58,419 nt of DNA from contig NCCT01000015.1 in assembly GCA_002279795.1 (NCBI GenBank), positions 1-58,419 on the forward strand, read 5' to 3'. Shown here one piece after another: positions 40,128 through 46,014 of this stretch. Source of the DNA: Hydrogenophilales bacterium 12-61-10. Lineage in GTDB: Bacteria > Pseudomonadota > Gammaproteobacteria > Burkholderiales > Thiobacillaceae. Made by a program: the position numbers and the translations under genes. Numbering within the stretch: the stretch's first letter is position 1; every line of letters begins with the position of its first letter. The notes beneath the pieces were generated by a model. It had not been told where the DNA came from and did no database searches. It saw nothing but the letters and a program-made list of their open reading frames with translations.

Positions 40128-42185
40128 ATGTCCCGCCAAATTCTCGTCACCTCCGCCCTGCCCTACGCCAACGGCAGCATTCACTTAGGCCATCTGGTCG
40201 AATACATCCAGACCGACATCTGGGTGCGCTTCCAGAAAATGCGCGGCCACGCGTGCCACTACGTGTGTGCCGACGACACCCACGGCACTGCCATCATGCT
40301 GCGCGCAGAGAAGGAAGGCATCACCCCGGAAACGCTGATTGGTCGCGTATGGGACGAGCACACGCGCGACTTCGCCGGCTTCCACATCGGCTTCGACCAT
40401 TACTACTCGACGCATTCGGACGAAAACCGCGCGCTGGCCTCGAAGATTTATCTGAGCTTGAAGGACGCCGGGCTGATCGACGTCAAGACCATCGCGCAGC
40501 TCTTCGATCCGGTTAAAAACCTGTTCCTGCCCGATCGTTTCATCAAGGGCGAATGCCCCAAGTGCGGCGCGGCGGACCAGTACGGCGACAACTGCGAAGT
40601 GTGCGGCGCGACCTACAGCCCGACCGAGTTGAAAAACCCGGTATCGGCGGTGTCGGGCGCGACGCCGGTGCACAAGGATTCCGAGCACTACTTTTTCAAA
40701 CTCGGCGCGTGCGAGACCTTCCTGCGCGAGTGGACGACCTCTGGCGCGCTGCAAAGTGAAGCCGCCAACAAGATGCAGGAATGGTTCGCCTCGGGCCTCA
40801 ACAACTGGGACATCAGCCGCGACGCGCCCTACTTCGGCTTCGAAATTCCCGACGCACCGGGCAAGTATTTCTACGTCTGGCTCGACGCGCCGGTCGGTTA
40901 CATGGCGAGTTTCGCCAACTATGCAGCGAACAACGGACTCGATTTCAATGCCTGGTGGGGCGCCGATTCCACAACCGAACTGGTGCATTTCATCGGTAAG
41001 GACATCCTGTATTTCCACGCCCTGTTCTGGCCGGCGATGCTGAAATATTCCGGCCACCGCCTGCCGACCGCGGTCTACGCGCACGGCTTCCTGACGGTGA
41101 ACGGGCAGAAGATGTCGAAATCACGCGGTACGTTCATCACCGCTGAAAGTTATCTGGATTCGGGTCTGAATCCGGAATGGCTGCGCTATTACTTCGCGGC
41201 CAAACTGAACGGTTCGATGGAAGATCTCGACCTCAACCTGGACGACTTCACCGCACGGGTGAACTCGGATCTGGTCGGTAAATTCATCAACATCGCCAGC
41301 CGCACGGCCGGTTTCATCCACAAGATCTTCGAGGGCACACTCGCCGACGGCGTGGCGAATATCGAACTCATCGGCGCATTCCAGGCAGCCGCCAGCGACA
41401 TCGCCGCGCACTACGTAGCGCGCGACTACGGCCGCGCGCTACGCGAAATCATGGCGCTGGCCGACCGCGCCAACCAGTATGTCGCTGACGAAAAACCCTG
41501 GGAATTGGCAAAACAACCCGAAGCCGTCTATCGCCTGCATGAAGTCTGCACGGTGGCGGTCAATTGCTTCCGCCTGCTGACGCTGTACCTGAAGCCGGTG
41601 CTGCCGAAACTCGCCGAGCAGGTCGAAGCCTTCCTCAATATTGACCCACTGACCTGGGACGACGCGCAAACCCTGTTCATCCGTCACCGCATCAACGCAT
41701 ACACCCACCTGATGACCCGAATCGACCCCAAATCCATCGAAACCATGATGGACGCCAACAAGCAGAACCTTGAAGCCACGCCGGCCCCCGCACCAACACG
41801 CCATGCCGAAGCGCAGGCGCACGCCGCCCAACCGGTAGCCGCTGCGCCGGTTGCCGAAACGATCAGCATCGACGATTTCGCCAAGATCGACCTGCGCATC
41901 GCCCGTATCGCCAACGCCGAACACGTCGAAGGCGCGGACAAACTGCTGCGCCTGACGCTCGATCTGGGTGATTTGGGCACGCGTCAGGTATTCGCCGGCA
42001 TCAAGTCGGCCTACGCGCCGGAATCGCTGGTCGGCCGCTTCACCGTGATGGTCGCCAACCTCGCCCCGCGCAAGATGAAGTTCGGCATGAGCGAAGGCAT
42101 GGTGCTGGCCGCCTCGGGCGACACGCCGGGCCTGTTCATCCTGTCGCCCGATTCCGGCGCGCAGCCCGGCATGAAGGTGAAATGA
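40128..42185 (+). CDS. metG: Methionyl-tRNA synthetase with C-terminal tRNA-binding domain
   Basis: MetRS charges tRNA-Met. The 685-residue protein has the HIGH-type motif [15 protein letters not shown] (about 8-22), a zinc knuckle with four cysteines ([21 protein letters not shown], about 142-162), the KMSKS motif as [12 protein letters not shown], and a C-terminal EMAP-like tRNA-binding domain ([13 protein letters not shown] onward). I choose ATG 40128; an upstream extension runs into the intergenic region. The acylphosphatase gene overlaps its stop by four bases. Confidence 0.97.
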
Positions 42186-42463
42186 GCGGGCAGACCCTGC
42201 GCCTGGTCATTCATGGCCGGGTGCAAGGCGTGTTTTACCGTGAGTCCCTGCGGCAGCAGGCACTCCGACTCAATGTCACGGGCTGGGCGCGCAACCGCGC
42301 TGATGGCACGGTAGAAGCAATCATCCAGGGCAGCGCCGATTCAGTCAGCAAGCTGCTGGAATGGGCGCATCGCGGGCCGCCGCTGGCGAAGGTGACCCAT
42401 ATCGATGTGGAAACCGCCCGTGGTGAGTCGTCGGCCTTCGAGATTCAGGCGTCAAGCGACTGA
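42182..42463 (+). CDS. acyP: Acylphosphatase
   Basis: The 93-residue enzyme hydrolyses acyl phosphates. The catalytic loop [14 protein letters not shown] holds the phosphate-binding Arg (about 21) and the Asn of [15 protein letters not shown] (about 38). Size and both motifs are complete. ATGA overlap couples it to metG. Confidence 0.93.
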
Positions 42464-42486
42464 ATCCCATTGCATAAAACCCGGAC

Positions 42487-42585
42487 AAAAAAATGCCCAG
42501 CTCCTGAGAGCCGGGCAGAGAATCCAACTTATGAGGAAGGATTGGAGGAGACAACACTGAGAGCAATTGCTGCGTCATCAGCGTT
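42487..42585 (-). ncRNA. Candidate small RNA with anti-Shine-Dalgarno segments
   Basis: A minus-strand transcription unit lies in the dnaE-acyP gap. TTGACA (42620-42615), a 17-nt spacer and GAAGAT (42597-42592) predict a start near 42585. The RNA of about 100 nt ends in a strong terminator: TGCCCGGCTC and GAGCTGGGCA pair as a 10-bp stem with one G-U pair and a 4-nt loop (42517-42494), then seven T residues to 42487. Between start and hairpin the RNA is C/U-rich and contains CTCCTCC and CCTTCCTC, each complementary to Shine-Dalgarno sequences. No reading frame with a start codon fits. This is the pattern of a base-pairing regulatory RNA; expression is not shown. Confidence 0.65.
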
Positions 42586-42591
42586 ATAAGT

Positions 42592-42620
42592 ATCTTCTAA
42601 TATTCTTGTATGCCTGTCAA
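42592..42620 (-). promoter_or_regulatory. Promoter of the candidate small RNA
   Basis: A perfect -35 box TTGACA (42620-42615) and, 17 nt later, a weaker -10 GAAGAT (42597-42592), on the minus strand. Confidence 0.6.
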
Positions 42621-42677: not shown

Positions 42678-45600
42678 TCAGTAAACCACGTTGACCGCTT
42701 CGGGCTTGAGCCAGCCCCTGAGCGACTCCAGCAGGCGGTCGTCCAGCCGTACCCGCCAGCCTTCTCCCAGCCGCACCCGGCAACGGGCATGGGTGTTTTG
42801 ATACTCCACCCAGACCGGGCATCCACCTTCCTGCGCCTTGTAGGCATCGAGCAGTTCGGCCAGCTTGCGGCCATTGCCTGGTTGCGCACTGACCTGTCCA
42901 TTGCAAACCAGGCGCAGCCCCTGCGCAAAACGGGTGCGAGCGCCGGCCAGATCGTAAATCTTCTCGGCCGTTACCCGCATTCCGCCCGAATACTCGTCGC
43001 GGTTGATTTTGCCTTCGATCACCAGCAGGGCATCGTCTTTCAAGAAATGTCGGTTCTGCTCGTACAGCTCGTTGAAAATCACCACTTCGATCTGCGCAGT
43101 GGCGTCGTCCAGCAGCAGGATCAGCATCTTGCCGCGCCGCGTCATCTGGGTACGCAGCGAGACGACAATGCCGGCCAGCATCACCGGATCGCGCGACGGT
43201 TCCAGGCTGTTGAGCTGGCGCTTGGCAAAGCCGGATACCTCGCTCAGATACGAGGTAAAGGGGTGGCCGCTGAAAAAATACCCGAGTGCGGACTTCTCCT
43301 GGATCAGCTTGTCCAGATCCGACCAGTACGGCACATCGACCAGATCTTCGCCGCCCTCGAGGGCTTCGCCGAACAGGCCGACCTGCCCGCCGCTCCGCGC
43401 CGCACGGTCGGCGGTTTCGAGCGCCGCACCGACCGAGGCCATCAGGCTGGCGCGATGATCGTTGATCGTGTCGAACGCGCCGGCTTTGACCAGCGCCTCG
43501 AGCACGCGACGGTTGAGGTAGCGCTTGTCCACCCGTCGCGTCAAATCGAACAGGCCCTGGTACGGGCCATTCGTTTCGCGCTCGGCCACGATCGCGCCGA
43601 TGGCCGCTTCGCCGCTGCCCTTGATCGCACCGAGGCCATAGCGGATCGCAGTTTTCGACACCGGCTCGAAGCGATACAGCGACTGGTTGATGTCGGGCGG
43701 CAGCATGGTCAGGCCGTTGCTGCGGCAGTCTTCATAAAAAATCCGCACCTTGTCGGTATCGGACATCTCGGACGACATCGTCGCCGCCATGAACTCAGCC
43801 GGGTAATAGGCCTTGAGCCAGGCGGTGTGATACGCGATCAGCGCATAGGCGGCCGAGTGCGACTTGTTGAAGCCGTATTCAGCGAACTTCTCCATCAGGT
43901 CGAACAGCCGCCCGGCGATCTTGTCCTCGACGCCGCGCTTGGCCGCGCCGTCGAGGAAAATCGTGCGCTGCACGGCCATTTCCTCGGGTTTCTTTTTACC
44001 CATGGCGCGCCGCAGCATGTCTGCGGCACCGAGGCTGTAGCCCGCCAGAATCTGCGCCACCAGCATCACCTGTTCCTGGTAGACGATGATGCCGTAGGTC
44101 GACTTCAGCACCGGTTCGAGGTCCGGATGGAAATACTCCGGCTTCTGCTTGCCCTGCTTGCGCGCGATGAAGTCGTCCACCATGCCGGAGCCGAGCGGAC
44201 CCGGGCGGTTCAGCGCCATCAGCGCGATGATGTCTTCGAAGCAGTCGCCCCTGAGCTTCTTTTCCAGATCCTTGGCCGAGCGCGATTCGGATTGGAACAC
44301 CGCCGTGGTGTTGCCGTCGGCGAACAGCTTGTACACCGCGCGGTCGTCCAGCGGCAGGTCTTCCAGGCGGAAGTCCTTGCGGTCTTCATGGCGCTGCACG
44401 AAGCGCACCGCCTCGGCCAGGATAGTCAGCGTGCGCAGGCCGAGAAAGTCGAACTTGACCAGACCGATCGCCTCGACGTCGTCCTTGTCGAACTGCGACA
44501 CCGCCGAGCCCGAGCCTTCGGCCTGGTACAGCGGGCAAAAGTCGGTCAGCTTGCCCGGCGCGATCAGCACGCCGCCGGCGTGCATGCCGACGTTGCGGGT
44601 GATGCCTTCGAGTTTTTCGGCCAGCGGCAGCAGCTCGGCGAGTTCTTCTTCGGCGGCGGCGCGCTCGTCGATCTGCGGTTCCTTCTCGCGCGCCTCGGCG
44701 AGCGAAATCCCCAGCTCGTTGGGCACCAGCTTGACGAACTTGTCGACGAACAGATATGGCAGGTCGAGCACGCGACCGACGTCGCGCAGCACCGCCTTGG
44801 CCGCCATGGTGCCAAACGTGGCGATCTGCGACACCGAGTCCGCACCGTAGCGGCGCTTGACGTAATCGATGACGCGATCGCGCCCGTCCTGGCAAAAGTC
44901 GATATCGAAGTCGGGCATCGACACCCGCTCGGGATTCAGAAAGCGCTCGAACAGCAGGTCGTAGGCCAGCGGGTCGAGATCGGTAATGCTGAGGCAATAG
45001 GCCACCAGCGAGCCTGCCCCCGAGCCGCGACCCGGGCCGACCGGCACGCCGTTGTGCTTGGCCCAGTTGATGAAGTCGGACACGATCAGGAAGTAGCCGG
45101 GAAAGCCCATTTGAATGATCGTGCCGAGCTCGAACTCCAGCCGCGCGACATATTCCGGCATTTTTGCGGCGCGCACCGCTTCATCCGGATAGAGATGGGC
45201 CATGCGTGCCTGCAGACCTTCGTGCGAACGCTGCCGCATGTAGTCGTCGAGACTCATGCCGTCCGGCGTCGGGAAATCGGGCAGGCGGCTCTTGCCGAGT
45301 TCCAGCGTGAGATTGCAGCGCTTGGCGATTTCGACGCTGTTGGCAAGGGCCTCCGGCAAGTCGGCGAACAGTTCCGCCATTTCTTCCTGCGACTTGAGAC
45401 AGGAACTGGATCGGGTGGGTGGCCACCGCCGGCAGATTGAGCGCGGCGCCAATGTCCAGCAGGCCGTCGATCAGGCGTTCGCTGTGCGGCTGGCCAAAGC
45501 GTTGCAGTTCCAGGTAATAGCGCCCGGGAAACAGGCTCGCCCACGCCGCGGCGGCCGCACGTGCGGCATCGGTTTTGTCGTCGAGCAGCGCTTGCGCCAC

Positions 45601-46014
45601 ATTGCCGCCGTCGCCGCCCGACAAGGCCAGCAAACCCTCGCTGTTTTCGGCCAGCCAGGCAGGGTCGATCTCGGCACGGCCGCGGTGGATGTTGTGCTGG
45701 TACGCCCGCGAGAGCAGTTCGCACAGGCGGCGATAGCCTTCGCGGTGCTGCACCAGCAGCAGCAGCCGCGAGGGCCGGTTGCGGTCGGCGGCATTGCTGA
45801 TCCACACGTCGCAGCCGAATACGGGCTTGATTCCCGCGCTGCGCGCTGCGCGGTAAAACTTGACCCAGCCGAAGGTGTTCGACAGATCGGACAGACCCAG
45901 CGCCGGCATCGCGGTGTCGCGCGCGCGCTTGACCGCGCCGTCCACCCGCACCAGGCCATCGGCGACGGAATATTCGGTGTGCAGGCGGAGATGGACAAAA
46001 CGCGGGTCGGTCAT
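42678..46014 (-). pseudogene. dnaE: dnaE, DNA polymerase III alpha subunit, with internal deletion and frameshift
   Basis: Two frames together encode most of the replicative polymerase. The 5' part (46014 to about 45400) gives the PHP domain (MTDPRFVHLRLHTEYSVADGL start) up to ATHPIQFL. The 3' part (about 45398 to 42678) resumes at LKSQEEMAELFADLPEALAN and continues through the catalytic palm (PDFDIDF, PVGPGRGSGAGS) and the OB fold. Between the two, the segment normally running DDFxAHEARVCIAEG...QY is absent, about 38 codons, and the frame changes. The visible parts amount to about 1,111 residues against about 1,150 expected. The gene is essential, so either the read or assembly is wrong here, or the protein is rescued by some means. 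Confidence 0.9.

Follow-up and report, generated by a model that had tools for sequence, protein, structure and literature searches.

What is encoded in the short interval that separates dnaE from acyP in Hydrogenophilales bacterium 12-61-10, and does it amount to more than the end of a transcription unit? In the stretch of DNA analysed here (58,419 nucleotides of contig NCCT01000015.1, hereafter the window), the minus strand at 42620-42487 reads directly as TTGACA, a 17-nt spacer, GAAGAT, about 99 nt, a terminator stem and seven T residues, a layout for which a previous sequence-only reading had proposed a small regulatory RNA acting on Shine-Dalgarno sequences. The parts of this unit and its two neighbours are the following:

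42678..45452, minus strand: 3' part of dnaE, the upstream neighbour (open reading frame; name as in the sequence-only reading)
42615..42620, minus strand: -35 box TTGACA (sequence; present in 50/50 genus loci examined)
42585..42602, minus strand: 18-bp imperfect palindrome TATTAGAAGATACTTATA over the -10 box, candidate operator (consensus TATTAGA-N4-TCTAATA)
42592..42597, minus strand: -10 box GAAGAT (17-nt spacer; 3/6 match to TATAAT)
42487..42585, minus strand: predicted primary transcript of about 99 nt (delimited by the promoter spacing and the terminator; folds at -37.1 kcal/mol)
42553..42585, minus strand: stem-loop 1, the 5' hairpin (helices 1 and 2 with 14 pairs, 5 changed on both sides; outside the Rfam RF02278 model)
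42487..42553, minus strand: RF02278 core with site 1, small hairpin and terminator (cmscan 59 bits, cut-off 50, model positions 1-64 of 64)
42543..42553, minus strand: site 1 UGUCUCCUCCA, anti-Shine-Dalgarno (invariant in 48 aligned genus sequences, which were picked by exact GTCTCCTCC)
42523..42546, minus strand: stem-loop 2, UCCAAU/GUUGGA with a 12-nt loop (predicted fold)
42533..42540, minus strand: site 2 CCUUCCUC, in the loop of stem-loop 2 (sequence; unpaired probability 0.47-0.99)
42494..42517, minus strand: intrinsic terminator stem-loop (10 pairs; 3 of 9 consensus pairs changed on both sides across the genus)
42487..42493, minus strand: seven-U tail (sequence)
42182..42463, plus strand: acyP (acylphosphatase), the convergent downstream neighbour (open reading frame; name as in the sequence-only reading)

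The elements previously described from the letters alone were recovered on direct inspection. The -35 hexamer lies at 42620-42615 and the -10 hexamer is as weak as had been proposed; a promoter scan requiring at least 4/6 matches in each hexamer listed no promoter at the 42487-42620 unit, and at the same spacing 49/50 genus loci show GANNAT or GANNCT and one shows TAGAAT. The two C/U-rich blocks correspond to CTCCTCC at 42550-42544 and CCTTCCTC at 42540-42533 on the minus strand, and the announced 10-bp terminator hairpin is built by the arms TGCCCGGCTC (42517-42508) and GAGCTGGGCA (42503-42494), with one G-U among its ten pairs, followed by the T run at 42493-42487. A terminator scan returned three overlapping terminator-like sites at the unit (shuffled sequences average 0.2), and the folding energy of 42590-42487 (-39.3 kcal/mol, z = -5.66) was reached by none of 200 shuffles. 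In the predicted fold, the order of the parts is stem-loop 1, an exposed site 1, stem-loop 2 carrying site 2 in its loop, and the terminator; within site 1, GUCUCC stays open (unpaired probability of 0.96 or more) and UCCA is mostly paired (0.10-0.41 unpaired).

Is this RNA new in kind? The Rfam model RF02278 (Betaproteobacteria toxic small RNA) matches 42553-42487 on the minus strand over its full length, with 59 bits against a cut-off of 50 (E = 2.3e-9), and the sequence features of the family are present, namely two hairpins, an intrinsic terminator, and C/U stretches of anti-Shine-Dalgarno type both at the 5' end and in the first loop. The RNA is a real, conserved member of this already named family and not new in kind. 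In this regard, the regulatory reading given to the locus gained support from the studied family members, which pair with ribosome-binding sites with Hfq, although the family itself had been missed. What is added here is an extended architecture, a likely joint superfamily with the NmsR RNAs of Neisseria and a candidate operator.

The window RNA shares with the rest of the family, which includes the double-hairpin RNAs ncS03, ncS05, ncS27 and ncS62 of Burkholderia cenocepacia and Hsnc059/063/086/107 of Herbaspirillum seropedicae, the same site 1, the C/U block in the first loop, the terminator, the U tail and a full-length match to the model. The Thiobacillus RNA differs in its extra conserved 5' hairpin and its dnaE/acyP site, and the loop block reads CCUUCCUC where the family consensus is CUCCUC. 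Copy number is also different, with a single match over the cut-off in the own genome against the three to five copies per genome reported for Burkholderia (PMC5688073). The next best match in the own genome (23.8 bits) lies on another contig; among this and the other RF02278-like places (23.4, 18.1 and 14.4 bits), which were collected at a lax threshold at which 13/14 control genomes match too, three look by eye like ordinary terminators, and the weak place at C11:5961 (L004) belongs to a different conserved element described below. A relative of another family offers an expanded set, with nine RF02278 matches on one contig (G066:C1; L081, L082 and further places), eight of them over the cut-off and two about 380 bases apart.

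Loss of the hairpin and blocks in relatives was one of the outcomes named beforehand as fatal to the proposal, and a covariance-model search of related genomes had been suggested as a check. In this search, 84 of 100 relatives had an RF02278 match at E <= 0.01 and 65 had one over the cut-off, as compared with 1/14 control genomes at E <= 0.01, below the cut-off, and 0/14 over it. Within the genus (56 genomes including the own one), 51/56 carry a match of at least 42 bits and 47/56 one over the cut-off; the five genomes without a strong match (G007, G018, G022, G041 and G044) are all less than 90% complete, and in two of these the match has only 26 bits. The relatives keep the hairpins and the C/U blocks. 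Fifty-one genus loci were fetched and 50 of them retained by an exact GTCTCCTCC followed by a T run (G014, L079, was dropped), so that the invariance of GTGTTGTCTCCTCCAATCC in the 48 distinct aligned sequences partly reflects, in its GTCTCCTCC portion, the selection criterion itself. Site 2 reads CCTCCTCC in most of the aligned sequences.

A closer view of the alignment revealed that the 5' hairpin ahead of the Rfam core, AACGCUGA...UCAGUGUU, changes its bases in step, with compensatory changes on the two sides of the stem. From 28 consensus pairs, 9 are changed on both sides, 5 of them in the 5' hairpin and 3 in the terminator, and all five covariation measures exceeded those of all 500 shuffles and all slid versions of the structure, which was predicted from the same alignment and compared with shuffles that ignore relatedness. 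The proportion of paired cells was 97.4%, against 28.5-41.9% in the slid controls. As judged from these aligned sequences, the conserved RNA is longer than the RF02278 model. In other genera of the family (L007, L009 and L019), the 5' hairpin has an additional C/U block in its loop (CUUCCUCCC, ACUCCC or ACCUCCC), which is a possible third pairing site that is not seen in the Thiobacillus RNAs.

The genomic site is conserved together with the RNA. For this comparison we used 46 named records matching a 22-base core pattern (28 labelled as Thiobacillus, 7 as Hydrogenophilales and 11 otherwise, the latter comprising one Sulfuriferula, one Rhizobium and the rest labelled at class or phylum level). 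The 3' end of dnaE occurs on the same strand at most 400 nt upstream in 45/46 of them, in agreement with the location downstream of dnaE already pointed out, and the single miss (L102) has only about 130 nt of upstream sequence. A convergent acyP lies at most 270 nt downstream in 36/46 records, whereas 8 gave no match and 2 have it further off; some contigs end there. As a separate observation, dnaE in the window is split over two overlapping minus-strand frames (45181-46014 and 42678-45452, with the overlap at 45181-45452), owing to a frameshift, a deletion or a draft assembly error, and the joined product presumably lacks some residues of DnaE.

What would such an RNA do? We consider it highly probable that the locus encodes a trans-acting RF02278-family small RNA that acts on ribosome-binding sites, very probably with the help of Hfq. 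According to this proposal, a σ70-type promoter downstream of dnaE would give a transcript of about 99 nt, which RNase E would probably cut at the GUGUUGUC junction, leaving a core of about 67 nt, as in the S17 RNA of Bordetella pertussis. By pairing with ribosome-binding sites of the GGAGGAGA type, sites 1 and 2 would then stop translation, and a regulator bound to the palindrome over the -10 box would probably control the promoter. Hfq is encoded in the own genome (TIGR02383, 98.2 bits over a cut-off of 61.7, at G000:C1:8015-8200), and the U tail of bacterial small RNAs is its usual docking site. Blocking of ribosome sites is the natural reading because it has been tested in relatives and Hfq is encoded here; for the own organism, we infer by analogy with them the transcript, its RNase E processing, its Hfq dependence and the pairing with ribosome-binding sites.

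The closest precedent is S17, which is reported to be Hfq-dependent, to be shortened with RNase E at a GU/GU cut from a 190-nt to a 67-nt form, and to repress the σ54 regulator BP2158 through site 1, as supported by compensatory mutations (PMC11722255). Both RNAs have in common site 1, a loop-borne site 2, a core of some 67 nt and a GU-rich junction resembling the GU/GU cut (PMC11722255), and the conserved GUGUUGUC of the genus would fit an S17-like cleavage. They differ in that the long form of S17 has 190 nt and sits beside coq7, whereas about 99 nt are predicted here beside dnaE. In this line, overexpression of ncS27 is described to slow growth of B. cenocepacia, with silencing having the opposite effect (PMC5688073), whereas S17 overexpression slowed E. 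coli growth modestly, in stationary phase, in the published experiments (PMC11722255), so the name 'toxic' may not describe the function of the family. The sibling RNAs NgncR_162/163 of Neisseria are also reported to bind Hfq and cover ribosome-binding sites (PMC9973317).

These Neisseria RNAs, also known as NmsRa and NmsRb, raise the question of how far the likeness goes. A structural similarity between the Burkholderia double-hairpin RNAs and the NmsRs had already been noted (PMC5688073), and NgncR_162/163 are described to pair through the single-stranded stretch that separates stem-loop 1 from stem-loop 2 and through the loop of the latter (PMC9973317), the same places where the window RNA carries its two sites. 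When the NmsRb model (RF02877) was run over the 100 relatives, it matched 28 places in 27 genomes at E <= 0.01. Of these places, 20 lie in the genus and therefore count as repeated sightings of a single ortholog; the remaining 8 come from seven genomes that belong to other families. By coordinates, all 28/28 are RF02278 places, and none of the NmsRb matches among the 100 relatives fell at other CUCC-bearing elements. Rfam lists no clan for either RF02278 or RF02877, and this full coincidence of the matches suggests that both belong to one superfamily.

A stronger version of this link, in which the window RNA would be a true ortholog of NmsRa/b controlling the same central-carbon targets (TCA and methylcitrate cycles), is one that we would sooner doubt than accept. 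The parts follow the same order (stem-loop 1, single-stranded site, loop site, terminator) and the coincidence of all 28 places speaks in its favour, as does one of the two places among the 100 relatives that exceed the NmsRb cut-off, L155, whose promoter carries TTGACA and TATTAGATAATTCTAATT, a palindrome with one mismatch. The other one, L154, has no palindrome, however, and the window RNA itself reaches only 26.8 of the required 52 bits, the own genome giving no NmsRb match at E <= 0.01. Moreover, the NmsRs are tandem siblings neighbouring dsbB/lrp, whereas the window RNA is a single copy that adjoins dnaE and acyP; this comparison was done with RF02877 (NmsRb) only.

Returning to the regulatory RNA that we favour, a simpler explanation is that the unit does no more than terminate transcription of dnaE, the terminator being preceded by a C/U-rich spacer, and that there is no separate RNA. 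The -10 box is weak, and dnaE runs on the same strand with its stop codon only 57 nt from the -35 box; such a terminator, however, leaves unexplained both the TTGACA and palindrome found in 50/50 loci and the covarying 5' hairpin with its conserved site 1, and RF02278 loci in other families of the order have different upstream sequences, all of which makes it very improbable. Least credible of all is a messenger for a small protein comparable to the 32-codon frame within the S17 long form, for which a 77-codon frame (42345-42578) opening in the RNA at 42578, against the literal claim that no coding frame fits, and an ATG at most 40 nt upstream of the core in 41/50 genus loci could be invoked, whereas 9/50 loci have no ATG there, the longest frame starts with ATG in 33/50, GTG in 12/50 and TTG in 5/50, varies in frame with respect to the core (18, 3 and 29 loci in the three frames) and in length (20 to 331 codons), and the changes in the hairpins preserve pairing; the claim is true in substance because start codon, frame and length vary in the relatives.

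If a separate RNA is made, what controls its promoter? A search pattern for the palindrome allowing 3-5 middle bases and up to two mismatches found it in 50/50 genus loci, in 7/19 separate places from outside the genus (one of the 19 was fetched twice, giving 20 rows) and once in the 58-kb window. Exact copies occur at 49 places in 41 of the 56 genus genomes, with none for the reversed control. The small RNA accounts for 35 of these. In a further 6 the palindrome precedes a DUF302 gene, in 3 it separates an Rrf2 gene from a divergent hmp gene, in 3 it precedes an LTXXQ-type gene (in two cases directly following a DUF808 gene of the same strand) and in the last 2 it precedes a peroxiredoxin gene. 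These assignments rest on one profile-checked example per family, the others being named by eye and the LTXXQ genes of G000 and G038 by likeness of context; every checked example passed its cut-off with one exception, the Rrf2 protein under the NsrR model.

The own genome contains five palindrome places with up to two mismatches (one per strand for the reversed control), at the genes for the peroxiredoxin, the LTXXQ-type protein, Rrf2/hmp, the small RNA and a candidate gene whose product we take to be a high-potential iron-sulfur protein. The four copies away from the small RNA, at G000:C88:32993, G000:C157:9733, G000:C11:1365 and G000:C114:2564 (L285, L303, L311 and L313), comprise two exact ones and two with 2 mismatches. 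Taken from its sequence neighbours, the palindrome looks like a possible operator of a redox or nitrosative stress regulator, defining a candidate redox regulon. NsrR was considered for this role and not assigned, because its published consensus, gATGyAT-N5-ATrCATc as given in PMC1274295, differs; the Rrf2 protein beside hmp (L288) scores 132.9 of 182 with the NsrR model, below the cut-off, and passes that of the Rrf2 superfamily only. In gonococci, RNA-seq is reported to have suggested effects of the sibling RNAs on iscR, dnrN, aniA and norB (PMC9973317), which by analogy would suit a link to redox stress without showing it.

On the side of the targets, for which the evidence is thin, the 10-nt complement of site 1 was found close before an ATG in 54 rows from 42/56 genus genomes, against 4 for a reversed control that is not matched for Shine-Dalgarno content. 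Such an excess is expected because the pattern contains the Shine-Dalgarno sequence, and the count is no proof of targeting. Two of the rows (G046:C274 and G050:C291) are antisense of the RNA gene itself, two from G025 are one site, and many of the 30 loci read out of the 54 rows open short frames only. The recurrent gene is prsR, encoding a PEP-CTERM-type σ54 response regulator (TIGR02915, 775 bits), with the full 10-nt complement in 18/50 genus orthologs (13/30 and 5/20) and GAGGAGAC before the gene in 20/30 and 7/20; these 50 come from 52 genomes with the protein, and of the other two G007 has the full site and G055 has no gene start. The full complement is absent before the own-genome ortholog, which reads GAAGGAGACGCCGC. 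The reported target of S17, BP2158, belongs to this class of σ54 regulators too, which may be a coincidence.

In the own genome, considering ATG starts only, two places have a site 1 complement of at least 9 nt. One of them precedes glmM (named by eye) with a perfect 11-nt match, which was rejected as a target: the TGGAGG part occurs in 28/30 of the orthologs examined (30 of 54 matches) whether or not the remainder is present, and the full TGGAGGAGACA in 5/30. The match counts little because its first part is, we think, coding sequence of the upstream gene. The second place (L134) opens a 110-codon frame. A complement of 12 nt precedes an hppA-like gene (named by eye) in G036 and G025. Site 2 complements before ATG numbered 18 in the own genome, with 1 for the reversed control, and the frames behind them have 1 to 112 codons, the longest (L150) resembling, on inspection by eye, a receiver domain entered at an internal start.

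The window RNA is not the only one of its type in these bacteria. Recurrent 89-nt matches in the genus were considered as copies of the RF02278 RNA and discarded, as the 3 tested of the 6 fetched (L042, L043 and L046; the others are L044, L045 and L047) are all anti-hemB RNAs (RF02837) over the cut-off, with 72.8-76 bits. The anti-hemB RNA, or Burkholderia RNA 7, is likewise a CUCCUCC-bearing RNA with a terminator, but the window RNA reaches 19.5 of 49.5 bits with its model and is not a member; at least two RNA families of the CUCCUCC type thus occur in the genus. Another conserved element bearing CUCC was observed at L004:1370-1544 (the C11:5961 region of the own genome), L036, L037, L038 and L039. 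It consists of a ACAACTAAAGTTGT dyad, then GCAAGCAGGAAGTTCTCCGCAACGAGGGG-TGTCTCCTCC, then a terminator, and the own-genome copy is the more degenerate one. Its scores stay below the cut-offs of RF02278 (four relatives, 30.5-33.9 bits) and of RF00519 suhB/mmgR (own genome, 33.6 of 41), and it is possibly a further anti-Shine-Dalgarno RNA.

In the literature consulted, RF02278 RNAs have been studied in Burkholderia, Herbaspirillum and Bordetella. The version described here occupies a single locus almost throughout the genus and has a conserved palindrome over its promoter, which offers a direct handle on the control of these RNAs. Through the bridge to NmsR, the literature on 'toxic' RNAs and that on the metabolic switch of Neisseria could inform each other. 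As a tentative scenario, towards which we remain more sceptical than convinced, RF02278 and NmsR RNAs would share a single betaproteobacterial ancestor, an anti-Shine-Dalgarno RNA with three stems. In many lineages the promoter of this RNA would carry the TATTAGA-N4-TCTAATA operator, and the regulator of redox or nitrosative stress that binds it would also act on peroxiredoxin, hmp/Rrf2, DUF302 and LTXXQ-type genes. If this were true, chemolithotrophic sulfur oxidisers would use the 'toxic' RNA as the part of that stress regulon that silences translation.
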